64,000 nucleotides of DNA from Oceaniferula flava. Its GTDB lineage: Bacteria; Verrucomicrobiota; Verrucomicrobiia; Verrucomicrobiales; Akkermansiaceae. The position numbers and the translations under genes are program-made. The notes under the pieces are model-generated. The model was given only the letters and a program-made list of their open reading frames with translations. It ran no database searches and was not told the DNA's origin. The DNA lies in NCBI RefSeq assembly GCF_016811075.1, contig NZ_JAFBGL010000003.1, forward strand, positions 1 through 64,000. Direction: 5' to 3'. Below, in pieces: positions 1,223-62,859 of this stretch (positions are counted from its first letter, which is position 1; every line of letters starts with the position of its first letter).

Positions 1223-2404
1223 ATGACACCGCTTCTGCGTAAAATTCTGGGCATGAACTGGCTGCTGGTGCTGACCATGCTAGGACTGTGTATTTTTGGA
1301 GTTTACGCGATTGAGAGTGCCGCCCGCCATCTTCCTAATGGGGGGGGGTATTATGCTGAGCGACAGAAGATCTGGATCATTGGTGGCTGCGTTGTGTTTT
1401 TCATCACAGCCTTGGTGGATTACCGTTGGATTCGCTGGTTGGGTATCCCGATGTATCTCGTGGGCTTGGCCTTGATGATAGTGGCCATGCTCAAAGGGAG
1501 TGAGGTTCATCAGTTGACTTTTGGTGGGCTGTCGTTCCAACCCACCCAGCTGGGTATTGCAGGGGGAATCGTGCTCATGGGTTCGTTGCTGCAGGATCTG
1601 CCCCGACTGAATCCCTTTTTTAAACTGCCCTTTGTTAAAGTTGGGATCATCGCTATTTTGGCAGGAATTCCATTTTTGGTCGTTGTGAAAATGGGCGATA
1701 TGGGGTCCGCGCTGGTCTGGCTACCGGTGACCGCAGTCATCATGTTTGCTGCGGGAGTTCCCTACCGTTATCTGCTCACGATGGCGATCGTGGCATTGGG
1801 GTGTTTGGCATTGGCTTATTACATTGTGCTACCCAAGGAGTCGCCTCGGGGAGCAAGCCGGATTGAGCTTTATCTGGCAATGATGCATGACCGCGAAGTG
1901 GACATTAATGGTGATGCTTACGCCCCTTATTGGGTTTCCACCGCCATTGGTAAAGCAGGTTGGAAAGGCTTGGGCTGGAATGCCACCAGTGAACAGGGAT
2001 CTCTACACGATAAGAAATACATCCCGTGGAAAACGGCCCACAATGATTTCATTTTCGCTGTGATTGGCGAGGAGCAGGGCTTCCGAGGGAGCTTGTTGCT
2101 GCTGACCGGTTATGCGCTGCTCTTGATTCAGTGCCTATTCATTGCCTTTTACAGTCGAGACAGCTCCGGGCGGATCATTGCCGGGGCGGTTGTGGCCTTA
2201 TTGTTTGCACACATCTATGAAAACATCGGCATGTGCGTATTGATGACGCCGATTACCGGGATTCCTCTTCCACTGGTAAGTTATTCTGGAACCTTCGTTT
2301 TGATGTGTATGTTTCTGCTCGGCCTGGTGCAGAGCGTTTGGGTACACCGCAATGTGGAAACGATCACCGAAGAAGAGGACAAACCTGAGCGACGCTTCCT
2401 CTAA
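1223..2404 (+). CDS. rodA: RodA-like SEDS peptidoglycan polymerase
   Basis: This 393-residue polytopic membrane protein belongs to the FtsW/RodA/SpoVE (SEDS) family. These enzymes polymerise lipid II glycan strands together with a class B PBP. Family motifs are visible: KTAHNDFIFAVIGEEQGF near residue 270 and PITGIPLPLVSYSGTF near 345, with about ten hydrophobic segments. RodA is favoured over FtsW because no fts or mur genes are nearby and the C-terminal tail is short. The gene follows the OmpH-like gene by six bases. No PBP2 gene is visible downstream, so the partner must lie elsewhere. Confidence 0.88.
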   Translation: MTPLLRKILGMNWLLVLTMLGLCIFGVYAIESAARHLPNGGGYYAERQKIWIIGGCVVFFITALVDYRWIRWLGIPMYLVGLALMIVAMLKGSEVHQLTFGGLSFQPTQLGIAGGIVLMGSLLQDLPRLNPFFKLPFVKVGIIAILAGIPFLVVVKMGDMGSALVWLPVTAVIMFAAGVPYRYLLTMAIVALGCLALAYYIVLPKESPRGASRIELYLAMMHDREVDINGDAYAPYWVSTAIGKAGWKGLGWNATSEQGSLHDKKYIPWKTAHNDFIFAVIGEEQGFRGSLLLLTGYALLLIQCLFIAFYSRDSSGRIIAGAVVALLFAHIYENIGMCVLMTPITGIPLPLVSYSGTFVLMCMFLLGLVQSVWVHRNVETITEEEDKPERRFL

Positions 2405-2478
2405 AATCAGGGGAGCTTTGGTCTCACGCATGGTGGCTTGTGACGGCCTCGCTCGACGATTCGGAGTCTGGCCCAAGC

Positions 2479-2799
2479 TTATGGTCGCCGGTGAGTGTGC
2501 GAGGCATCATCTTCCCATGGGGTGTCGCGTGTTTCCGGGGACGAAGGATGGAGTACGTCGATTTGTGCCCCTTTGCTGCGGCTGAGCGACCGTCGCATGC
2601 GCCGATAGTCATCGTGCAACTGGCTGTTGACGTAATCAAAGGTGACTGCCAAGGCCATTAGGATGGGGGCACTTACCAGAAGGTGGAAGAGCGATGCCTC
2701 AAGCTCACCGCGGATGATGGATGAGATCCCTTGAAAAATTTCCCAACATGACGCGAGCACTGCTACGATGGTAGAGACGGTGAGAATGAATTGGCGCAT
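2479..2799 (-). CDS. Small two-helix membrane protein, unknown
   Basis: The 106-residue product starts at MRQFILTVSTIV. The frame stays open for another 26 codons upstream, but that part overlaps the fabH end and looks non-coding. Two hydrophobic segments (about 3-22 and 38-58) are followed by a basic, polar C-terminus with several Arg and Ser. It lies 50 bases downstream of fabH on the same strand and may be the last gene of the yceD-rpmF-plsX-fabH operon. I do not recognise a family. Confidence 0.6.
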   Translation of the reverse strand: MRQFILTVSTIVAVLASCWEIFQGISSIIRGELEASLFHLLVSAPILMALAVTFDYVNSQLHDDYRRMRRSLSRSKGAQIDVLHPSSPETRDTPWEDDASHTHRRP

Positions 2800-2849
2800 A
2801 GGTTGGAAACGGAGGAAGACGCTCGGATGAGCGAGCTTCCCGTGATGTT

Positions 2850-3851
2850 TTACCACTCGATGGCTGAAGCGGCCCAAGTGAGGCCGGCTCCGAAGGCCAC
2901 CATGATGATGTTGTCGCCGCGCTTGATTCTGCCTTCGCGGTTGGCTTCATCCAGAGCGATGGCGATCGCTGCCGCTGAGGTGTTGCCGTATTTGTGAAGG
3001 TTGACGAAAACTTTTTCATTGGGGACGTCGAGGCGTCCTGCAATGGCATCGATGATGCGCAAGTTCGCTTGATGGGGGACCACCAGTGAGATGTCTTCTG
3101 CAGACAGGCCCGCACGTTCGATGACCTTCTCCGACGCCTGGCGCATGGCGGTGACGGCGAGTTTGAAGACTTCACGGCCCTGCATGGAAAGTGTGGCCAG
3201 TTTGTCGTTGGCGTTGCTCATGCTGATGGGGCAGGCCGAGCCACCTCCCTTGATGTCGAGAATGGCGGTGTGACGTCCGTCGGTGCCTGTTTCCGAGGCA
3301 AGGATGCGGCCTTCACCTTCTTCCGACTTGCGCAAGACGGCCGCTCCGGCGCCATCGCCGAAGAGCACGCAGGTGTTGCGGTCCTCCCAGTTGACAAAGG
3401 CGGAGAGTTTCTCGGCACCGATGATCAGGGCATTTTTGTAAGCTCCGTCAGAAATCAGACGTTTGGCCAGCTTCATCGCGTAGAGGAAGCCGGAGCAAGC
3501 GGCGGAGATATCAAAGGCGACGGCGGAAAGGGCTCCAAGGTTCGCCTGAACGTAGCAGGCTGTCGATGGCGTCAAGGTGTCCGGCGTGATGGTTGCGACG
3601 ATGATCAGTTCGATGTCTTCGGCGGCCATGTTGGCCTGCTCCAGTGCCTTTCTGGCGGCATTGGTGGCCATGTGCGAAGTGAACTCATCGGCGGCGGCGA
3701 TGCGACGCTCTTTGATGCCGGTTCGGGAAACAATCCATTCATCGCTGGTATCGACAATTTGTTCGAGGTCCGCGTTGGTGAGGACTTTTTCCGGAACGTA
3801 GCTGCCGGTTCCGGCAATGGTGACAGGGATGACAGAAGTGGTTTCGTTCAT
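2850..3851 (-). CDS. fabH: 3-oxoacyl-ACP synthase III (KAS III)
   Basis: FabH condenses acetyl-CoA with malonyl-ACP to start fatty-acid synthesis in the cytosol. The 333-residue length is typical. The triad is visible: Cys119 in SAACSGFLYAM, His in PHQANLRIIDAI and Asn in YGNTSAAAIAIA. The N-terminal IAGTGSYVPEKVLTN and DEWIVSRTGIKERR are classic FabH sequences. It follows plsX and rpmF in the conserved yceD-rpmF-plsX-fabH order, with a 115-base gap to plsX that may hold an internal promoter. Confidence 0.97.
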   Translation of the reverse strand: MNETTSVIPVTIAGTGSYVPEKVLTNADLEQIVDTSDEWIVSRTGIKERRIAAADEFTSHMATNAARKALEQANMAAEDIELIIVATITPDTLTPSTACYVQANLGALSAVAFDISAACSGFLYAMKLAKRLISDGAYKNALIIGAEKLSAFVNWEDRNTCVLFGDGAGAAVLRKSEEGEGRILASETGTDGRHTAILDIKGGGSACPISMSNANDKLATLSMQGREVFKLAVTAMRQASEKVIERAGLSAEDISLVVPHQANLRIIDAIAGRLDVPNEKVFVNLHKYGNTSAAAIAIALDEANREGRIKRGDNIIMVAFGAGLTWAASAIEW

Positions 3852-3966
3852 TGAGAAAATTCAGACGTTAATTGACTGCGGGGCAAGGGTAATCGGCTTT
3901 TGGCAGATGAACAGCGAAAATAGAATACGCCTGTCTCAATTTCCGCTAAACCCTTGGTATTCAAGA

Positions 3967-5013
3967 TCAGGCATTGGCCGCTTCGTCTTCACTTGGACGA
4001 TGCATGGCGGCCAAGGTCTCCTCAATATGGGGATTCACCTTCAAGCTGACGGTCTCACGGGCGACCCGGATGGCGTTCTGGATCGCGAGGGCCGACGAGC
4101 TGCCGTGGCCGATGATGCAGACGCCGTTGACGCCGAGTAGGGGAGAGCCGCCGACGTATTCGTAGCTGCTTTTCTTTTTCACCGCCTTGAAGGCACCGCG
4201 GGCAATGGCAGCCCCCATGATGCGGAACGGGCTGCGTTTGAACTCGAGTTTGAGCCACTTGGACATGGCTTTGGCGGTGGCTTCACAGCTCTTGAGAATG
4301 ATGTTACCGGTAAATCCGTCACAGAGCACGACGTCGAGTTTGCTCTCGAACAGATCGTGGCCTTCGACATTGCCGACGAATTCAAAAGGTGCGCGGCCGG
4401 TGGACTGAAGGTGTTTCAGTAGAGCAAAAGTTTCCTTGGTAAACGTGGTTCCTTTTTCGTCCTCCTCGCCGTTGGACATCAGGCCGACTCGTGGGACGTC
4501 GACTCCGAGCACGTTCTTGGCGTAGACGGCGCCCATCACCGCGTAGGTAATGAGGTGTTGAGGTTTGGCCTCTGGGTTGGCTCCGGCATCGAGGATCTGG
4601 CAGATGCCGTGCTCGTTGGGAATGGCGGAAGCGATGCCAGCGCGATCGACACCTTTGAGGGTGCGCAGTTTGACCGTGGCGGCTGCGACGGCGGCTCCGG
4701 TGTTGCCGGCACTGACGACGGCATCGGCCTCGCCGGACTTGACCATATCGGTGGCGATGGAAATTGAGGACTTCTTCTTTCTCCGCAGCGTTTTGGCTCC
4801 GGACTCATCCATGCCCACCACTTCGGGGGCGTGGGTGATGACGGCTCTAGGGTCGGTCAGTTTGCACTCGGCCATTTCCTTTTCCAGAGCATGGGCGTCG
4901 CCCACGAGAAACAGCTTATCAATGTCAGCATAAAGTTTAAGCGCGTTGCGGGCGCCGAGGACGGTGACGTGCGGGGCGTTGTCGCCGCCCATGGCATCGA
5001 GTGCTATCTTCAT
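3967..5013 (-). CDS. plsX: Phosphate acyltransferase PlsX
   Basis: PlsX converts acyl-ACP to acyl-phosphate for the PlsY/PlsC route to phosphatidic acid. The start MKIALDAMGGDNAP is the family's usual N-terminus, so I start at 5013 and not at the in-frame ATG 15 codons upstream. Other conserved parts are VVSAGNTGAAVAAA, FVGNVEGHDL and VVLCDGFTGNIILK. At 348 residues it has normal length. It sits between rpmF and fabH in the standard operon. Confidence 0.96.
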   Translation of the reverse strand: MKIALDAMGGDNAPHVTVLGARNALKLYADIDKLFLVGDAHALEKEMAECKLTDPRAVITHAPEVVGMDESGAKTLRRKKKSSISIATDMVKSGEADAVVSAGNTGAAVAAATVKLRTLKGVDRAGIASAIPNEHGICQILDAGANPEAKPQHLITYAVMGAVYAKNVLGVDVPRVGLMSNGEEDEKGTTFTKETFALLKHLQSTGRAPFEFVGNVEGHDLFESKLDVVLCDGFTGNIILKSCEATAKAMSKWLKLEFKRSPFRIMGAAIARGAFKAVKKKSSYEYVGGSPLLGVNGVCIIGHGSSSALAIQNAIRVARETVSLKVNPHIEETLAAMHRPSEDEAANA

Positions 5014-51946: not shown

Positions 51947-52028
51947 GCCGGATTTTTAGGCAAATTCCAGTGAGTAGCAAACTGAAAACTTGAATCCTGC
52001 TAGGTCGTCCCCATGATGCTTGCAGCCC

Positions 52029-55000
52029 ATGTCTGCCATGATCCAAAGCACCATGATCCGCGCCTCCGCAGGTAGCGGCAAAACCTGGCAATTAGCCAAT
52101 CGCTACCTCAGCCTGATGGTGCTCGGTGCCGCACCGGAAAAAATCATCGCCCTGACGTTCACGCGCAAAGCTGCCGGCGAGTTCACCAGCAGGATTATGA
52201 CCCGGCTGGCCGATGGCGCGGCGGATGATGAGGCCGCTGCCAAACTCTCCGCAGAGCTCACCGAGGTGATTGTGGGGACCGATTCCATACCGCCGCTGGT
52301 GACGGCCAAGAGCGATGGTAGCCCGGTGGTGCTGCCGACCATGGACGCGGGGTATTTTCAAAAGAAATTGGAACAGCTGGTGGCCGCTCTGGATCGGCTC
52401 GCCCTCTCCACCTTGGACAGTTATTTTGTCAGGATCGTGCGGAACTTTGCCCTCGAACTCGGCCTGAGTGGTTTTGATTTGATGGACGACTCCGCCATCG
52501 CCGCCGAGCGTATGGCGGTGATGACCCAGATCTTTTCCAATCGGCTCACCTCCGAGAAGTCGCGCGAAGCCTTTCTTCAATCGTTCAAGCAAGCCACCTG
52601 GGGCGAGGAGGAGAACCGTCTGGCCCAGACCCTCGAAGACTTTGTTCAAAACCATCAAAACCGCTGGCTCAGTGCCCCCGAGGCGGAAAAGTGGGGCGGT
52701 GAGTCTCTGCTCTGGCGATCAGACCAAGGCGGCTGCCCTTTTGGCGATGGTAAACTGGCAGAGCTTTCGCAGTTGTTGCGAGCTTCCTTGGGGCCGCCTG
52801 TTAGCCCGCATGTGACCTACATGAAAGGCTGGCACGTGGTGTGTGATCTTCTCGAGCAGCATGTGCCGGGGGCTGCCATCAAAATGAATGCCCAGCTGAA
52901 GCGTGCCTTGCCGCGGTGGCAGGAATTTGCGCAAGGAGGACTCATCGATAATGCCAAATATGAAATCACTCCGGAGCAGGGGGCTCTGATGTCGGCTCTG
53001 CTGGGGGTGTTTATCAAAGGAGAAATCGAAATCCGGATGAAGCGCACCCAGGGGCTTCACGCGGTGATCTCAGCCTACGAGGACAGCTACCACCAGCATG
53101 TGCGCAGTAGGGGCCGACTTTGTTTTTCCGATCTCACCATGCTCTTGGCCGGCGAAGGAGCGATGGAGATTTGGGAACCCGACGCCCGCGAGCTGATTGA
53201 TTACCGACTCGATGCCCGCTACGATCACTGGTTGTTAGATGAATTTCAGGACACCAGCCAGCCGCAGTGGAAAGCGGTCGGAACTCTCGTGGATGAGGTG
53301 CTGCAAGACCCGGAAGGGGAGCGCTCCGTGTTTGTGGTCGGGGATAGTAAGCAAAGCATCTACGGCTGGCGTGGTGGGGAACCTCGTCTATTCGACGACC
53401 TTCAGGAACACTACGGTCAGGCCCTGGCCGAGTGGAACATGGATCGATCCTACCGCTCGTCCCAGCACGTGCTCGACCTCGTCAATTGCGTCTGCGATCT
53501 GAGCGACCCCAAGTGGCGTGAGATTTTCCCAGCCAAGTCGGTCGACCGCTGGAGCTTTCATTCCCACATGCCGTCTGGCGAGAAAGCCGGGCACAGTCTG
53601 GTGCTGGAAACCACCGCCGACCCCAGTGCGGATAGTGCGGAAAAACAACAGGCACGATACGCGCTGGTGAAGGAGCTGTTAGTAAAAACCCAACCGCTGA
53701 AAAACCATCTGACTTGCGCGGTGCTGGTGAGTAAAAATGCACAGGCAGCTGGACTGGTGGAATACCTGCGCTCCGAACTGCCCGAGATGCCCGTGGCGCC
53801 CGAGACCGAGACGCTGGTCAGCGACGGTCCGGAGGGAGCTGTGATCTTGGACCTCTTCCGTTGGCTGAGAAATCCCTCCGATGACTTTGCTCGGCATCAC
53901 CTCAGCTACACTCCGCTCGCGCAGGTGGTGCAGACCATGACGGGGCATGAGAAAGCGAGCGCTCAATGGTCGTGGCTGACCGCTGAGATCGCACGCAAAG
54001 GTCTGGCGCCGCTGGTGCAGGATTTAGTGCACGGCTTGCGCGAGCAGGTGGAAGTTTCAGACTATGGCGAGAGTCGACTTGAAGAGATCCTCACTGCTGC
54101 CTGGGACTTCAGTGCCAGAGGTGGAAGTCTGGACGACTGGATAAGTTTGTTAGAATCTCGCAAGGTCAAGGAAAACACCCGCGACGGAATGATCCAGATC
54201 ATGACCGTGCATAAATCCAAGGGGCTCGGGTTTGATATGGTCATCCTTCCAGAACTGGGTGGCCAAGACTTTGCTGCAACCAGTCGCTTGGAGATGTTAG
54301 AACGCAAGGGTGAGCTGGGGAAAACCGAGTTCATCATCCGCAAGCCGGCGAAAGAATTCTGTGAAGCAGACCGAGCATTGAGCGAAATGCTCAACGATTG
54401 GGAAGCAGATCAATGTTATGAGCGGTTTTGTAACCTCTACGTTGCCATCACCCGTGCCAAGCACGCCACCTATTGCATCCTCGATCCGGTGAAAGACAGC
54501 TGGACTCCGGGGCGGAAATATGACGACTGGATTCGCGAAGCCACTGCTCGAGCAGGCGATGGCGAAATTGAAATTGCCGGCCAAATTTACCCACTACTTT
54601 TCGCCTCCGGTGATTGGTTGGATATTTCTGGCGATGGCGAAGCGGACAGCGAACAAGAACCGGCACCTATCGTTCTTCAGCCCGCGCAAGCACGCATGGG
54701 CCGGAAGATTGCCAGCGGGGCGAAGGCTGCCAAAATTGGTTCGTTGTTAGAGTCGGGCAAAGGCCTCGCGTTCGGGAACAGAGTGCACGCCTTGTTTGAA
54801 AAAATCACCTGGCTCGACGAACTGCCCGATTTTGATGATCAACCGTCGTCGCAAGCGGTGAAAGCCTGTCTTGAATCTGCGGGAATCAGCGAGTTCTTTC
54901 GGCGCCCGTCCGGCGAGTTTCAGCTGCTTAGGGAGCAACCGATCGAGACCCAGCACGAGGGCCAGTGGGTCAGCGGTATCATCGACCGCGCGGTGATTCA

Positions 55001-55199
55001 TTTTGAAAACGGCCAAGTGACTGAGGTCAGCATCATCGATTTCAAAACCGACCTCAAAGATGCTGCCGAGCTGCGAGACGCCTACTCCCAGCAACTGGCG
55101 ATCTACCGCCAAGCCATGGCCGGCATTTTTCAGATTTCAGAAGATCAAATCACCTGCCACCTGCTCTCGACTTCTCTCAAGCAGATGGTGGAGGTATAG
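52029..55199 (+). CDS. AddA/RecB-like helicase-nuclease
   Basis: The 1056-residue protein is a UvrD/Rep-superfamily (SF1A) helicase with a C-terminal RecB-type nuclease. Motif I is IRASAGSGKTWQLANRYL, Ia IIALTFTRKAAGEF, II DHWLLDEFQDTSQPQWKAV, III VFVVGDSKQSIYGWRGGEP, IV DRSYRSSQ, V MTVHKSKGLGFDMVILPEL and VI LYVAITRAKHATY. Near the end comes GIIDRAVIHFENG, then VSIIDFKTDLKD and YSQQLAIYRQAM. Such enzymes process double-strand breaks for recombination. No addB/rexB gene is next to it. I start at the ATG for MSAMIQS; a TTG three codons upstream is also possible. Confidence 0.92.
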   Translation: MSAMIQSTMIRASAGSGKTWQLANRYLSLMVLGAAPEKIIALTFTRKAAGEFTSRIMTRLADGAADDEAAAKLSAELTEVIVGTDSIPPLVTAKSDGSPVVLPTMDAGYFQKKLEQLVAALDRLALSTLDSYFVRIVRNFALELGLSGFDLMDDSAIAAERMAVMTQIFSNRLTSEKSREAFLQSFKQATWGEEENRLAQTLEDFVQNHQNRWLSAPEAEKWGGESLLWRSDQGGCPFGDGKLAELSQLLRASLGPPVSPHVTYMKGWHVVCDLLEQHVPGAAIKMNAQLKRALPRWQEFAQGGLIDNAKYEITPEQGALMSALLGVFIKGEIEIRMKRTQGLHAVISAYEDSYHQHVRSRGRLCFSDLTMLLAGEGAMEIWEPDARELIDYRLDARYDHWLLDEFQDTSQPQWKAVGTLVDEVLQDPEGERSVFVVGDSKQSIYGWRGGEPRLFDDLQEHYGQALAEWNMDRSYRSSQHVLDLVNCVCDLSDPKWREIFPAKSVDRWSFHSHMPSGEKAGHSLVLETTADPSADSAEKQQARYALVKELLVKTQPLKNHLTCAVLVSKNAQAAGLVEYLRSELPEMPVAPETETLVSDGPEGAVILDLFRWLRNPSDDFARHHLSYTPLAQVVQTMTGHEKASAQWSWLTAEIARKGLAPLVQDLVHGLREQVEVSDYGESRLEEILTAAWDFSARGGSLDDWISLLESRKVKENTRDGMIQIMTVHKSKGLGFDMVILPELGGQDFAATSRLEMLERKGELGKTEFIIRKPAKEFCEADRALSEMLNDWEADQCYERFCNLYVAITRAKHATYCILDPVKDSWTPGRKYDDWIREATARAGDGEIEIAGQIYPLLFASGDWLDISGDGEADSEQEPAPIVLQPAQARMGRKIASGAKAAKIGSLLESGKGLAFGNRVHALFEKITWLDELPDFDDQPSSQAVKACLESAGISEFFRRPSGEFQLLREQPIETQHEGQWVSGIIDRAVIHFENGQVTEVSIIDFKTDLKDAAELRDAYSQQLAIYRQAMAGIFQISEDQITCHLLSTSLKQMVEV

Positions 55200-55209
55200 G
55201 GGGGCTTTG

Positions 55210-56676
55210 TTAACCCCGAGAAAGGGCTGGAATACCGCGCTTCAACAGCTCGGCATCGATCGCATCCGAGATGCGGGCATCCAGGTAAATCGTCTTCGGT
55301 TGGCCATCTGCGAACTCGATGGTGTGGAGCCTGTCGCTACCTGGAGTTTCGAAAGCCTTGATCAGCGATGGGATGTCGGCGATTTCCTGACCGTTGATTT
55401 TGGCGATGATAAAGTTGCGTAGGCTCTCGTAACCGGTGGTGGCCGGCGTGGGGATGGTGGCACTGAGGAAGACCAATTTGTTGCGACCTTTTTCATAATC
55501 CTCAGGGCTCGCCATGGCGTCTAACAAGTTGAGCGGAGCTGTGCTCTGCCAGTCTTTGCCGAAGGCGCTGAGGTAGCTCACGGAGAGTTCTTGGAAAATG
55601 AAGCCACCCTTTACCAGGTAGTTCGGCGATTGGTCCAACGTGTGGCTGGGAATCAAATTTTTACCGGGACGACTGAGCACCGCGGTGAATTCCTTCTTCT
55701 CACCCTCGCGTAGCACGGTGACTTTGACGGAGTCGCCCACCTTGTGCTGTCCGCGGATCAGATGGCTCCAGAAAAGTCGGCCGTAGTTATCGTCGTCATA
55801 ATATCCGCGACGTCCGATGGTTTTTCCGCCGATGGATAACAGCACGTCACCCTTGAGGATGCCGGCCTGATCCGCTGCGCTGCCTTTGCGAACGCGGGTG
55901 ACGTAGAGTCCGCCGACGTCTTCAGGCAGTTTCAACCAAAGGCGGAAACTGGGGTCCACTGTGCTGTTGATGCCGATACCGAGTGATGGGAATCCGAGGT
56001 ATTCACCATCGGCCGCATCCGCGATGAAGGCGGCGATGATCTCCGGAGCGATGATATCAATGATCTGGTCTTTGGAATCGTAGCTGGAGAGCAGTCCTAA
56101 CAGTTTTCCATCCTTCACCGCTGGCAGGCTGAAGCTGCTCGAGGCACTTTGCATCGAAGCTTTCGCCTCGTAAGTGAGGAAGTAGTGACCACGGACGAAG
56201 CTGGAAACGATGTCGACACTCTGCACCGTCGCCTGGGTGATCAGTGGCATGCCGTTGTCTTCCAGCTGCCAGATGTCTACCTTGTCGCCAATGTGAGTGG
56301 CTTCGCCCAGAGCGATGGGGGAGAGGTCTTTGAAAAAACCTTCGGTGTCACCGTTGTCAGGTGCTAACAGGGCGAGGTTGGATTCATAATCGATGGCCAC
56401 CACCTTGGCTGGCAAGGTGCGGGTGCTGTCGGCATTTTCCAGTTCGATGTAGGTGCTGTTGGCTGCCATTTCAGCGGTGGTCAGCACTTGCTTGCCTTGC
56501 AGCAGCACGCCGAGCGCGCCACGGCTGCTGGGTGCGGATTTGTCCCACGGCTGCGAGGCGCTCCACGTTTGCAGGGTGGAATTCACCCGCACGAGGGAGT
56601 TTTTGACGTCCGCCGCAGCGTGCGCCAGACAGAGCATGGCGGCTGAGGTCAGTGAGAGGAGAGAGAAAAATTTCAT
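55210..56676 (-). CDS. HtrA-like pseudoprotease with PDZ domain
   Basis: The 488-residue secreted protein (signal peptide MKFFSLLSLTSAAMLCLAHA) has the HtrA plan: a trypsin-like part (about 25-230), then a PDZ part (LYVTRVRKGSAADQAGILKG; DVLLSIGGKTIGRR). The triad is lost: the His site reads QVLTTAEMAANST instead of TNAHVV, and the Ser site reads QSASSSFSLPAVKDGKLLG instead of GNSGGP. Asp remains in DYESNLALL. It sits 27 bases downstream of an HtrA-like gene with an intact triad on the same strand, so the two may act as an active/inactive pair in the periplasm (inferred). Confidence 0.88.
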   Translation of the reverse strand: MKFFSLLSLTSAAMLCLAHAAADVKNSLVRVNSTLQTWSASQPWDKSAPSSRGALGVLLQGKQVLTTAEMAANSTYIELENADSTRTLPAKVVAIDYESNLALLAPDNGDTEGFFKDLSPIALGEATHIGDKVDIWQLEDNGMPLITQATVQSVDIVSSFVRGHYFLTYEAKASMQSASSSFSLPAVKDGKLLGLLSSYDSKDQIIDIIAPEIIAAFIADAADGEYLGFPSLGIGINSTVDPSFRLWLKLPEDVGGLYVTRVRKGSAADQAGILKGDVLLSIGGKTIGRRGYYDDDNYGRLFWSHLIRGQHKVGDSVKVTVLREGEKKEFTAVLSRPGKNLIPSHTLDQSPNYLVKGGFIFQELSVSYLSAFGKDWQSTAPLNLLDAMASPEDYEKGRNKLVFLSATIPTPATTGYESLRNFIIAKINGQEIADIPSLIKAFETPGSDRLHTIEFADGQPKTIYLDARISDAIDAELLKRGIPALSRG

Positions 56677-56703
56677 GATAAGTTAGAGTGAGAATGTGCA
56701 GGG

Positions 56704-58218
56704 TTATTCTTCGAGACGGTAAGCTTGGCTGATGCCGTAGTTGCGCATCGTGCGCTCGCTGGCCTCCTTGGCCTTGTTCCCCGGAACGATGATCGGCCGC
56801 TCGACGCCTTCGCATTTGATTACGAAGAATTCGGGCGTGGTGGTCGGATGCAGCAGTTGGTGTGCTTGTTCCAGGCTGGTGACCTTTTCACCATTGATCG
56901 ACTCGATCGCGCGACCGGCGTGGTTGGAAACATGGGTCGTGACCGGATCGCTGAGCATGCGCGTGAGGATGACGATGTCCTTGCGTTCTTTGAAGATTTC
57001 TTCATCGATGTAGTGCGCAAAGAGACGGCGGACGCGGGTGTTCTTGAAGTTGTGTGCGGCGTAGAGGTTCCGATCGAGCGGCTGGAAGACCATGCCGGCG
57101 AAGGTGGTGAAGCGCGGGTTGACGCCGTATTGCACCGCATACATGCGCGCTGGTGGGAAGGGCTTCAGGGTGGCCACCTTTTCCATCGTTTCGCCATTGC
57201 GGATGATTTGCAGCTTGATTTGGTCGCCGGCAAATTTGCGCTCCACGATTTCGTTCAGGTTCACTTTTTCGCCATCGATCAGGATATTACCTGCCGCATC
57301 CACGGCATTGCCATTGATGGCGGTGAGGATGTCGTTGTCTTCTAACACACCATCGCAGGGGCCGTCCGGAGTGACCGCCGCGACCAGCACGCCTGGTGAG
57401 TTCGGGCCGAGACCGAATTTTTTCCGCATCGCCGGATTGAACAGGGCGAACTCGGAGATGCCGAGGTCCACGTAGTGATCGTATTGCCCGTCTTTGATGT
57501 CGGTGAGAAAACGTTTCACCACCGGTGTGGGAATCATGTAGCCAGTGTTATCGGCCGAGCGCAAACCTTGGAATGCGACGCCAACGACACGACCGTTCTG
57601 CAGAACCGGGCCACCGGAGTTACCCGGGTTGATGGCAGCGTCAATTTGAACAATGAGGTGCTGGTCCGAGCGGGTGTGACTGTAGGAGCTGAAGTCGATG
57701 CGGGAAACCACACCGCGGGTGACCGAAATGCGGTTGCCGCCCACCGGGTAGCCGATCACTCGCACCTGGCTTTCCAGCTTTGGCACCAGACCAATTTCCA
57801 AGAACTCCATGCCCTTGAATGGGGTGAAGTCTTCGACCTCTAACAATGCCAGGTCACAATCGTGAGCGATGTGGACGATGCGTGCCGGGTGCTTCTGGGG
57901 TGACCCGTGCACGGTGATGAGCAGGCGGCGGGCATTGGAGACCACGTGGGCGTTGGTAAGGAATTTGTTAGGACCGATCAAGAAGCCGGTGCCGATGCCA
58001 CCACTGAAATTCCCCGCTTTCCACGGTTCGCGGTAGTTCGGCACCTGGGTGGCAGCTTCGATGCGGACGATGGAGCTATAGATGCCGTTCACCGGAGGAG
58101 CGACCTTGTCTGGCAGCGGGGCCAGTGGCGCGAGGGGGTGGCTTTGCTGTGCCGATGCGGTGCCAAAACTGAACGCCGAGGCGATGGCCAGTCCGATGGC
58201 AAGTGACTTGTTTCTCAT
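56704..58218 (-). CDS. HtrA/Deg-type periplasmic serine protease
   Basis: The 504-residue protein has a signal peptide (MRNKSLAIGLAIASAFSFGTASA). The trypsin-like triad is intact: His in KFLTNAHVVSNARR, Asp in HIAHDCDLALLEVED and Ser in AAINPGNSGGPVLQNG. PDZ-like parts follow (GVLVAAVTPDGPCDGVL, DNDILTAINGNAVD, and a second one near the end: GRAIESINGEKVTSLEQAH). Its architecture resembles Deg proteases of plants and bacteria, with a longer C-terminal region than DegP. It precedes the pseudoprotease gene by 27 bases. Confidence 0.93.
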   Translation of the reverse strand: MRNKSLAIGLAIASAFSFGTASAQQSHPLAPLAPLPDKVAPPVNGIYSSIVRIEAATQVPNYREPWKAGNFSGGIGTGFLIGPNKFLTNAHVVSNARRLLITVHGSPQKHPARIVHIAHDCDLALLEVEDFTPFKGMEFLEIGLVPKLESQVRVIGYPVGGNRISVTRGVVSRIDFSSYSHTRSDQHLIVQIDAAINPGNSGGPVLQNGRVVGVAFQGLRSADNTGYMIPTPVVKRFLTDIKDGQYDHYVDLGISEFALFNPAMRKKFGLGPNSPGVLVAAVTPDGPCDGVLEDNDILTAINGNAVDAAGNILIDGEKVNLNEIVERKFAGDQIKLQIIRNGETMEKVATLKPFPPARMYAVQYGVNPRFTTFAGMVFQPLDRNLYAAHNFKNTRVRRLFAHYIDEEIFKERKDIVILTRMLSDPVTTHVSNHAGRAIESINGEKVTSLEQAHQLLHPTTTPEFFVIKCEGVERPIIVPGNKAKEASERTMRNYGISQAYRLEE

Positions 58219-58351
58219 GACTGGAAACTAAGGCGAAATCGCCGTATGAAAAGCGGTAAAACAAGGAGGCGGGAGAAAATTATCGTCGCTGGGGCGATCG
58301 ATCTTGCAACTATGGAGTGGCCATTTGAAATCGCTCTCGTTAGGCTGGGTT

Positions 58352-59422
58352 ATGTCCTCAAGCTTGCCGGATGCCGCGCCGATCCCAGACCAACCACCAT
58401 TGCATCTCAAAGGTGGCTATTTGTGTATCGCTTCCCCTGTGGAGCTGAGAGAAGCGTGTTTTGCTGTGCCGGCGGTGCGGTCGTTGCGTCATTTCAGACC
58501 GCAGTCCACCATGGCTGTGCTTTGCCCGGAATCGCAGGCGCCGCTGTGGCAATCGATGGAGGAGTTAGACCGGGTGATCATCTACCCGGATAAAAGTTCA
58601 GCGCGTCAGATTGCCAAACTACTGCAGGCACAGGACTTGGAGTTTGAGTCGTCGATCAGCTGGGAGGCCAACGAGGCTGCCAAGGCATTCCAGCGGGTAT
58701 CCATTTTACAACGACTCGGCTATCCGGCGAAAGGCTTGGAAAAAACGCTGACCGATCCGGTGTCGGTGGTGGTGGAGCCGGGGCCGATCGAACACCGGGT
58801 GCGTCACTACCTGCTACTGGTGGAAGAGCTGGGCGGGAATCCCTTTGTGAAAGCGACGTTCCAGACACCCGAGCTACCCGCTGCACCGAAGAAGTCGAAA
58901 ATTGCGCTCGCGCCGGCGTCCGATTTTGGAGCCAGTCATCAATGGCCGGTCGAGCGCTTCAAGGAGCTGGTCGAGAGCTTCGAGGCTGAGCACGGGAAGG
59001 ATGGCATCGAGTGGTTGATCCTCGGTTCAAGCCAGTCGGGCGATATCGGAACCACGGAAAGCGATCTCGCAACGCTGCTCGACGGTCGGGCCAAAAATCA
59101 TGCGGCTGAGTGGGGTATGGAAGAAAACCTCACGGCATTGGCGAGCTGCACGGCGCTACTCAGCAGCGATAACAGTCTGGCACACTTGGCCGCGCATCTC
59201 GGCTTGCCGGCGGTGGTGGTCTTTGGTCCAAACGAACCCAGCTGGAAGCGCCCACTGGGAAAACAGAGCCAAGCGCTACGTGAGCATGTGGCTTGTAGTC
59301 CTTGTTTTCTACCTAAGTGTCCTCTCGACATGCGCTGCCAAGATGCGGTGAGCGTGGAAATGGTGAGCGAGGCCCTGCTCGACGCCATGAATGATCGAGC
59401 CGGTGAGTCACAGACCAACTAA
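58352..59422 (+). CDS. Glycosyltransferase family 9 protein (heptosyltransferase-like)
   Basis: The 356-residue protein from MSSSLPDAAPIPDQPPLH has the GT9 two-domain fold: an N-terminal CIASPVELREACFAVPAVRS and a C-terminal nucleotide-sugar part KIALAPASDFGASHQWP, LTALASCTALLSSDNSLAHL, then GLPAVVVFGPNEPSWKRPLG. GT9 enzymes add heptose or similar sugars to the LPS core. A cysteine-rich end (ACSPCFLPKCPLDMRCQ) is typical. No LPS cluster is nearby. Confidence 0.88.
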   Translation: MSSSLPDAAPIPDQPPLHLKGGYLCIASPVELREACFAVPAVRSLRHFRPQSTMAVLCPESQAPLWQSMEELDRVIIYPDKSSARQIAKLLQAQDLEFESSISWEANEAAKAFQRVSILQRLGYPAKGLEKTLTDPVSVVVEPGPIEHRVRHYLLLVEELGGNPFVKATFQTPELPAAPKKSKIALAPASDFGASHQWPVERFKELVESFEAEHGKDGIEWLILGSSQSGDIGTTESDLATLLDGRAKNHAAEWGMEENLTALASCTALLSSDNSLAHLAAHLGLPAVVVFGPNEPSWKRPLGKQSQALREHVACSPCFLPKCPLDMRCQDAVSVEMVSEALLDAMNDRAGESQTN

Positions 59423-61137: not shown

Positions 61138-62859
61138 TTAGACAGCGGGTGCCTTGACCTCGGCTTTCTGATACTGGTGGTTGATCCAGTTCAGGAAGGT
61201 GCGGATCATCAGGTCCATTTCTGCACCTTGCACGGCATTGTCCACGCGCAGTTTGTTTTCCTCGGTGTCTTCAAGTTCACGTTTTTCGACGAGGAAGAAG
61301 AGCGAGCGGTCGGCTTCGTTGATGACTTCGGAAACCTCGCCGGGGTTGAGGCCGGCGGCGATGCCGTGAAGCTGCTGAGCGCTGGGCTCGTCTTGCGGCG
61401 GAGTGCTGCTGGCGAACGGGCCAACCTGCACAGGTGTCAGGCCTTTTTCACGCACAGCGGTGTCGAAGTCCTTGCCGGCCTTCATCAGCTCGAGCACTGC
61501 ACTGCGGGCTTCTTCGGCGGCGAGTTTCACCTTCTCAGTGGCATTCTCTCCGATGAGTTGTGCACGAGCTTTGGCGCGGGCCGCATCGTAGTCGAGCAGT
61601 TCAGGTTCGACGACTTCCTCGAGCACAAACACAACCCAGCCGTGCTCACCAACGGGGAGGGGCGCGGAGACGTTGTTGTAGGCGTTGTCGGATTTCTTCA
61701 TTTTGAAGATGTCCTCGGAAAGTGGGCGGTTCTGATTGCTGGAGCCACGGAGGGTCAGGCCTTGCAGCTCAGCGGGGAGCTTGGCACGGGTGAAGAGCTC
61801 GCTCTCGGTGACTTGGTGGTCGTGTTTTTCAACGATGGCTTTGAAATCGAGCGGGAGCTTTTCGTTTTCGCTCTCGATGATGCTGTCGTAAAGTTCCTGA
61901 ATCTGGCGTGTCAGGGCCTTGGCGGCGGTGGCACGAAGTTCACGTTTCTGAGTTTCCTCAGCGGCTTTGGCCTGTGCTTTGGCCTTGGCTTCCTCTTCAT
62001 TCTTCGGCTCGGCCTCTGCTTTGTCGTCCTCCGTGGCGGCTTCATCAGCGTCTTCCGGGAGGGTCAGGAGGAGGTAGGAAATGCGGCGTTGCTCATCGGT
62101 CTTGTAAGCATCTTGGTGGGCTTCCCAGTAGGCTTTGACTTCCTCTTCGCTGGGGTTTTCTCTTTCCACGAAATCATCGCGCTGGAAGGTGACTTTGGCC
62201 AAGGTGACCGTCTGCATCTGGGCTTCGAGCATGTCTTGCGTGGCGCTGCGTGATGGAGCGAGTCCGCCACCGACGATGTTAACCAGCTTGTTCAGGCAGA
62301 GGTTTTCACGGACGAGGTCGCGCAGGTGACGCTCGGTCATGCCCATCCGGCCGAGGCGTTTCTCGGCGAAGAGGGTGTAGGCAGCCTCGCTGTATTTGCC
62401 ACCGCTGGAGAAGGTGGGGAGAGATTTGATGGCTTCGGTCACCTCGTCCTCGCTGGCGTAGAGGCCCATCTCGGTGATGGCGCGCTTGAGAATGATGCGG
62501 TTGGCAACAAAGCGGTTGAGCTCCACTGCGGTCAAGTTGTTGCGCATCATGGTGAAGTAGTTGTAGCCGAAACGACCAAGCTGCAGCGCCTGCTGCATCT
62601 GCTGAGCGTCAGGGGCCATGAGGAAGTTGATGTAGTTGTGCAAACCGGCCTCGGAACAAAGCTGAAGTGTCTGCTCGCCCATGCGGCTGTAGGACTGCTG
62701 GTCGATCGATTGACCGTGAACTTCCAGCACGGTGGGACCGCTGCCTCCACTGACGCCGGATCCGGTGCCGATGTCGTTCATGGTGAATAGGAAGCCTGCG
62801 CCAAGCAGGACGAAAACGACGACCATCAGGCCGGTGTATTTGCGCATGTTTTCAATCAT
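61138..62859 (-). CDS. SurA/PpiD-like periplasmic chaperone
   Basis: The 573-residue protein has one N-terminal membrane anchor (MIENMRKYTGLMVVVFVLLG) and a SurA_N-type region (VLEVHGQSIDQQSYSRMGE; LNRFVANRIILKRAITEMGL). A highly charged Ala/Glu/Lys coiled segment (about 275-310) and a C-terminal helical part (ALGL-type AGLNPGEVSEVINEADR) follow. The parvulin-like core is hard to see, so PPIase activity is uncertain. PpiD helps newly exported proteins fold at the inner membrane. It is 78 bases upstream of metG on the same strand. Confidence 0.8.
   Translation of the reverse strand: MIENMRKYTGLMVVVFVLLGAGFLFTMNDIGTGSGVSGGSGPTVLEVHGQSIDQQSYSRMGEQTLQLCSEAGLHNYINFLMAPDAQQMQQALQLGRFGYNYFTMMRNNLTAVELNRFVANRIILKRAITEMGLYASEDEVTEAIKSLPTFSSGGKYSEAAYTLFAEKRLGRMGMTERHLRDLVRENLCLNKLVNIVGGGLAPSRSATQDMLEAQMQTVTLAKVTFQRDDFVERENPSEEEVKAYWEAHQDAYKTDEQRRISYLLLTLPEDADEAATEDDKAEAEPKNEEEAKAKAQAKAAEETQKRELRATAAKALTRQIQELYDSIIESENEKLPLDFKAIVEKHDHQVTESELFTRAKLPAELQGLTLRGSSNQNRPLSEDIFKMKKSDNAYNNVSAPLPVGEHGWVVFVLEEVVEPELLDYDAARAKARAQLIGENATEKVKLAAEEARSAVLELMKAGKDFDTAVREKGLTPVQVGPFASSTPPQDEPSAQQLHGIAAGLNPGEVSEVINEADRSLFFLVEKRELEDTEENKLRVDNAVQGAEMDLMIRTFLNWINHQYQKAEVKAPAV

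Follow-up and report, generated by a model that had tools for sequence, protein, structure and literature searches.

A protease gene and its triad-less neighbour in Verrucomicrobiota: a putative two-gene counterpart of plant Deg7

Two adjacent genes of the Deg2/Deg9 type

HtrA proteases are generally presented as forming homo-oligomers. What role could then be played by an HtrA gene that has lost its catalytic residues and lies directly downstream of an intact one? This question is raised by the window, i.e. the whole stretch of 64,000 nucleotides analyzed from Oceaniferula flava (GCF_016811075.1, contig NZ_JAFBGL010000003.1), which carries two tandem HtrA genes on its minus strand, 27 nt apart, just as the original prediction had placed them. 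The upstream gene, hereafter A (56704..58218, minus strand), encodes a 504-aa Deg2/Deg9-type HtrA serine protease with an intact triad, recognized from its ORF, its Pfam domains and its triad residues. The downstream gene, hereafter B (55210..56676, minus strand), encodes a 488-aa pseudoprotease without triad, recognized from its ORF, its Pfam domains, the residues at the catalytic sites and a predicted model. The spacer between the stop of A and the start of B (56677..56703, minus strand) was delimited from the ORFs and the DNA. The pair is flanked by genes encoding a UvrD-type helicase (52020-55199, plus strand) and a glycosyltransferase of family 9 (58304-59422, plus strand). Since both flanking genes are on the opposite strand, A and B are predicted from the gene layout to form a two-gene unit. 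The window also encodes, some 3 kb farther upstream, a SurA_N/rotamase protein that is PpiD/SurA-like (61138-62859, minus strand).

The two proteins have the same domain order: a signal peptide (read by eye), a trypsin-like domain and two PDZ domains. In A, these are Trypsin_2 (aa 76-214), PDZ_2 (272-345) and PDZ_3 (363-499); in B, a degenerate Trypsin_2 (56-173), PDZ_2 (232-331) and PDZ_3 (342-480). According to Pfam, Trypsin_2 reaches 95.3 bits in A and 20.1 bits in B, i.e. below the cut-off of 27.6 bits, and both PDZ_2 and PDZ_3 (PF17815) are above the cut-off in the two proteins. The Sec-like signal peptides suggest that A and B are exported.

All three motifs of the triad were read in A, as predicted: TNAHVV (H91, codon 57946..57948, counted from the start at 58218), HDCDLALL (D122, codon 57853..57855) and GNSGGP (S201, codon 57616..57618), the three codons being read in the DNA of the minus strand. 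With a trypsin-like domain, His, Asp and Ser residues, a GNSGG motif and C-terminal PDZ domains, A is probably an active Deg/HtrA-type peptidase, its proteolytic activity being deduced from these motifs. In B, the counterpart of H91 is E69 (TTAEMA) and the Ser site reads SASSSFSLPA. The TTAEMA and SSSFSL motifs were therefore correctly pointed out from the start; the loss of the Asp, replaced by Asn (N100, in DYESNLALL), had been overlooked. The description of the Ser site has to be nuanced: the GNSGG motif is gone, but the B of the window retains a Ser (S180) aligned to the Ser column. The His-Asp-Ser triad is thus absent from B (E69, N100 and no GNSGG).

Both proteins belong to the kind of Deg proteases known in plants as clade II (Deg2/Deg9): they have a protease-PDZ-PDZ organization including PDZ_3 and are similar to clade II members over their full length. 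A profile built from 37 A proteins matches plant Deg2 (4fln) at an E value of 4.4e-111, and the B profile matches plant Deg9 (5il9) over its full length at 3.2e-68. The predicted model of B (pLDDT 90, pTM 0.85) matches the fold of Deg9 (5il9; E value 1.1e-40, TM 0.83/0.87) and also that of Deg2 (4fln); the predicted model of A has a pLDDT of 84. The predicted fold of B is Deg9-like, which, together with the PDZ_2 and PDZ_3 found by Pfam, agrees with the claim that B keeps both the fold and the PDZ part.

Conservation of the pair and of the catalytic loss

If B were a decaying pseudogene local to one genome, as its lost triad could suggest, the pair should not recur in relatives. A search with B (E value of at most 0.001) gave a match in 37 of 39 genomes (that of O. 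flava and 38 relatives); the two relatives without match have a completeness of 87% (G002) and 69% (G016). From the 36 matching relatives, 37 stretches were taken, which provided with the window 37 A and 35 B ORFs, and A is upstream of B on the same strand in all 34 stretches holding both genes (window included). At the level of the class, the B profile (E value of at most 1e-10) matches 125 of 236 genomes, at least twice in 113 of them and once in the other 12. The remaining 111 have no match at this threshold, so that the pair is not found throughout the class. Forty of the 113 multi-match genomes were newly read, in addition to those of the order read before, and a triad-bearing A adjoins a triad-less B in every one of the 40. 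The 12 single-match genomes correspond to seven active proteases, four stray PDZ matches (L244-L247) and one B (G249), which runs off the end of its locus and for which no A was found. The seven proteases are solo Deg9-like enzymes, each from a different genome of the class (L237-L243), without any B. A without B was found in G007, G014 and G376, with a contig end in each case. In the phylum, PDZ_3 was detected in 74 of 194 genomes versus none of 14 control genomes, and complete A-B pairs were found in 11 loci outside the class, a twelfth being cut by a contig end. Among the best 80 of 390 loci, the closest relatives belong, according to named contigs, to Akkermansiaceae/Verrucomicrobiales.

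All fetched loci together provided 122 distinct linked pairs with A upstream on the same strand, A and B being assigned by the higher-scoring of two HMMs with a floor of 150 bits in the pair count (and in the lipobox scan below). The gap between the two genes has a median of 2 nt, does not exceed 100 nt in 120 of the 122 pairs and ranges from -547 to 274 nt, the large negative values arising from longest-ORF start calls. The count also gave 36 loci with B without A, six of which are not orphans: three are pairs missed by the gap rule (L213, L216 and L322) and three are cut at their end (L082, L233 and L325); the counts of 122 and 36 are kept here as produced. An A-B fusion in this family was considered for the long B ORFs of L213, L216 and L322 and rejected: they start within A in another frame and were read as ORFs with over-extended starts.

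In the linked pairs, the His, Asp and Ser of the triad are present in all 120 readable A proteins, the other two being incomplete and unreadable. The B proteins of the same 122 pairs have various residues at the His site (Glu in 66, Asp in 23, Ala in 15, Gln in 11 and others in seven, one of these being His) and at the Ser site (Asn in 37, Ser in 35, Gly in 13, plus others), and none of them has a G[DNSE]SGG motif. The replacement of Asp by Asn is the most constant change in the B family (117 of 122, the other sites being Gly in three, Glu in one and Asp in one). Taking all 158 distinct B proteins, 157 of them readable, Asp was retained in three (L320, L322 and L190) and His in one (L323). The case named beforehand as contradicting the prediction, a second gene whose triad is intact in relatives, was not observed: not one of the 157 readable proteins has both His and Asp.

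Other positions are retained in B. Of 60 positions conserved in at least 97% of A proteins, P65 and W66 are kept in 157 of 157 B proteins and G276, D296 and G375 in 158 of 158. The positions around the active site of A are nearly lost in B (N89 in 0%, H91 in 1%, D122 in 2%, G199 in 4% and G203 in 1%), and the Ser column is still Ser in 40% of them. The Pro-Trp motif shared by A and B is also found in plant Deg9; by analogy with HtrA structures, this segment might be near a trimer interface. Furthermore, the dN/dS ratio of B is low, like that of A: 0.027-0.109 in ten comparisons for B and 0.020-0.092 in nine for A (Nei-Gojobori), these comparisons being non-independent since they were made among ten related genomes, with one saturated A value, matching a dS of 2.2 in B. 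Linked-pair conservation (122 distinct pairs), long open B frames and low dN/dS lead us to reject the local pseudogene, which we regard as extremely improbable. The maintenance of the pairing across several classes suggests instead that B is functional rather than decayed.

In addition, lipobox-like N-termini were found in 46 of 158 B proteins versus four of 164 A proteins (a set that includes the solo proteases); as the scan used a loose regular expression over related sequences, some of these matches are doubtful. Neither the B of the window nor most other B proteins are among them. The contrast between the two sets suggests that B may be lipid-anchored in some lineages and A soluble.

Unlinked genes and the origin of B

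Does B depend on the proximity of A? In 30 of the 80 named loci (the best 80 of 390), B has no adjoining A. Where the genes are unlinked (L134, L144, L147, L149, L150 and 25 further named loci), dapB is present in 26 of the 30 loci versus none of the 122 linked-pair loci, and it is the upstream gene in the five loci inspected gene by gene. The 30 unlinked B proteins form one side of a branch with a support of 95 (FastTree, 76 B proteins), so that a single unlinking event is probable and these cases should be counted as one observation rather than fifteen. Sixteen of the 30 genomes were searched for A, which is encoded elsewhere, at more than 740 bits, in 15 of them. In this clade, both genes have therefore been kept though they are no longer neighbors. 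In the remaining genome, G281, with a size of 2.0 Mb and no stated completeness, B is present and A was not found by the search.

These loci are relevant to the possibility that B acts alone, as an HtrA reduced to its chaperone function, i.e. a periplasmic holdase or a peptide-binding chaperone expressed with A and unbound to it. The retention of the fold and of both PDZ domains would suit such a chaperone, as would its separation from A in 30 loci, with dapB in 26 of those, and the presence of B in G281. However, B is nearly always accompanied by A in the genomes examined: apart from G281, the cases of B without A that were met are unlinked pairs or contig ends (with 16 of the 30 unlinked-B genomes searched for A), and we consider this explanation fairly unlikely. 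B is a conserved pseudoprotease whose association with A in the same genomes extends to a clade in which the two genes are unlinked, which fits the role of a partner.

Concerning the origin of B, a careful tree of 42 proteins groups B proteins in one clade (100/99) and A proteins in another (90/93), as did a first quick tree (99 for B and 92 for A; support of 8 for the solo set). The best tree groups A with the solo active Deg9-like proteases, with weak support (70/68), and a clade joining A and B to the exclusion of the solo set is not rejected (p-AU 0.226). The pairwise path lengths of A and B are correlated (r 0.90), those of B being about 1.5 times longer; this correlation is also expected from a shared species history. 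The simplest reading of these trees would be that catalysis was lost once, anciently, and that both genes were then inherited vertically together.

Possible role of B and comparison with known systems

The reading that we prefer, and that we hold to be slightly more probable than its contrary, is that B serves A as a dedicated pseudoprotease subunit, the two genes being a counterpart of plant Deg7. A, an exported protease of the Deg2/Deg9 type, would be the catalytic subunit and B the non-catalytic subunit of one envelope HtrA machine. B would derive from a protease copy of this kind in which catalysis was lost anciently, and its retention would be due to structural features, namely the Pro-Trp segment at the N-terminus, the barrel core and the two PDZ domains. 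B would assemble with A, either in mixed trimers or as a B trimer stacked on A trimers, and would organize the oligomer, its PDZ domains being positioned to capture substrates or to act in gating. In lineages with a lipoprotein-like B, it might also tether the complex to a membrane. The original prediction had proposed hetero-oligomers or a substrate-recognition partner, and we infer the same from these genes; the complex itself, its stoichiometry, the effect of B on A, the tethering and the substrates are proposed here from sequences.

Three arguments favor a hetero-oligomer: (i) B retains the structural and PDZ parts without catalysis, (ii) the two genes are found in the same genomes, either as neighbors or, in one clade, apart, and (iii) the single chain of plant Deg7 is arranged in this order and reportedly trimerizes through its degenerate domain. 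However, co-occurrence and mirrored trees (r 0.90) may also result from shared ancestry or from a shared pathway without contact. Furthermore, the faster evolution of B (about 1.5 times that of A) and G281, which has B and no A found, count against a subunit. Moreover, no match was found in 111 of the 236 genomes of the class, and in seven an active relative occurs without B, so that a partner is not needed for such proteases to work; the solo enzymes could reveal how the protease behaves in this situation. B might also be an inhibitor or a decoy that titrates the substrates of A or poisons its oligomers, A being held low until stress. The likeness of A and B in architecture and in PDZ types and their encoding by one gene pair are compatible with this, and a dead subunit can presumably be dominant-negative in an oligomer; we nevertheless consider an inhibitory role quite improbable.

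Known systems indicate that the pairing of an active and a dead HtrA module is of a known type, of which A-B is a variant. According to the passages of two papers that deal with it, plant Deg7 (clade III) consists of an active protease-PDZ-PDZ part followed by a degenerate protease-PDZ-PDZ part in one polypeptide, and they report second-hand that it homotrimerizes via the degenerate protease domain (PMC3473262, PMC4754418). The domains read in the window proteins are in the same order, active then degenerate, with two PDZ domains each. However, Deg7 is one chain whereas A and B are separate ORFs with a stop codon and a 27-nt spacer, and the modules of A and B are Deg2/Deg9-like with PDZ_3. The task that Deg7 performs as a single chain would here be shared by two genes. 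The likeness to Deg2 and Deg9 themselves (4fln, 5il9) lies in the full-length profile match of A and B and in the Pro-Trp motif shared with Deg9; the difference is that Deg2 and Deg9 keep the triad that B has lost. In its part on the Arabidopsis family, one paper counts all Deg proteins except Deg6 and Deg16 as triad-bearing (PMC3473262), and the portions of the plant Deg literature consulted name no dead partner gene for Deg2 or Deg9. Deg5 and Deg8, two paralogous plant Deg proteins, form a 1:1 hetero-oligomer and are, according to a review section, the only Deg proteases so far known as hetero-oligomers (PMC4877387). They resemble A-B as a paralogous Deg pair; unlike A-B, both keep the triad (as stated in the family overview of PMC3473262), and Deg5 has no PDZ.

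In magnetotactic bacteria, MamE/MamO and MamE1/MamE2 associate an HtrA-type protease and a degenerate paralogue in one gene set, these pairs having arisen independently inside magnetosome gene islands; proteolysis by MamE requires MamO and not the triad of MamO (PMC4794232). Since its authors credit this effect to the TauE domain of MamO, not to the dead protease domain (PMC4794232), the analogy with B is limited; moreover, this C-terminal transporter domain is absent from B, in which Pfam finds only PDZ families and Trypsin_2. The protease domain of MamO has a di-histidine metal site (PMC4794232), which offers a precedent for B having been repurposed to bind a metal or another non-protease ligand. 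Acidic ligands would be possible in B, in which E78 and D96 are invariant. However, the protease domain of 35 B proteins has no invariant or nearly invariant His or Cys, the sole nearly invariant His (H451) being in PDZ_3. Judged by conservation alone, B differs from MamO in having no di-histidine site; a MamO-like metal repurposing is thus unsupported and appears very improbable. We found no description of the A-B pair in the parts of the open-licence PMC literature that were searched.

In the genome of O. flava, 14 Trypsin_2 matches were found, some ORFs holding two, and three other places (C7, C3 at 181-184 kb and C10) carry a gene with GDSGGP or GNSGGP followed by a triad-less gene. Two of these tandem pairs belong to a second family (2377-4715 of locus L040 on C7 and 3039-5197 of L041 on C3). 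On C8, an active and a triad-less half are found in one 545-aa protein (328-1962 of L042, minus strand). With the triad-less protein of C7 as query, a match was found in 26 of 30 genomes (O. flava included), and an upstream gene with GDSGGP is followed by a downstream gene without it in 24 of 30 loci (L283-L312, O. flava included, some genomes being present twice). Furthermore, one 757-aa protein of G018 (1288-3558 of L300, minus strand) matches both active and triad-less members. In L042 and L300, a single protein thus seems to combine an active HtrA half with a triad-less one. In the triad-less proteins of this second family, the PDZ appears to be inserted into the protease domain, ahead of the last segment of that domain, and the family seems to be a separate instance of active/dead pairing. 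The locus on C10 (2310-5144 of L039) has another organization: it encodes a 683-aa HtrA with four PDZ stretches and, 30 nt downstream, a 251-aa trypsin-like protein that lacks both the triad and a PDZ. This smaller protein was rejected as a broadly conserved partner, being found in three of 30 genomes (O. flava included).

It is possible, and we propose it tentatively, that many Verrucomicrobiota have a two-subunit HtrA or "split Deg7", in which the B clade would provide a Deg9-type protease with a platform for assembly, an adaptor for substrates and, in some cases, a lipid anchor, and would predate the split of several classes. The same logic would apply to the second HtrA subfamily, including its natural active-dead fusions, so that active/dead pairing might be a general rule of envelope design in this phylum. 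If true, the pair would provide a tractable bacterial system for studying the roles of degenerate protease domains in assembly, gating, adaptor function or anchoring. For annotators, it means that triad-less HtrA genes of this phylum are to be treated as real parts. Moreover, 23 genomes belong to one genus of the family of O. flava, probably Akkermansia; hence, a gut commensal may use the A-B system.
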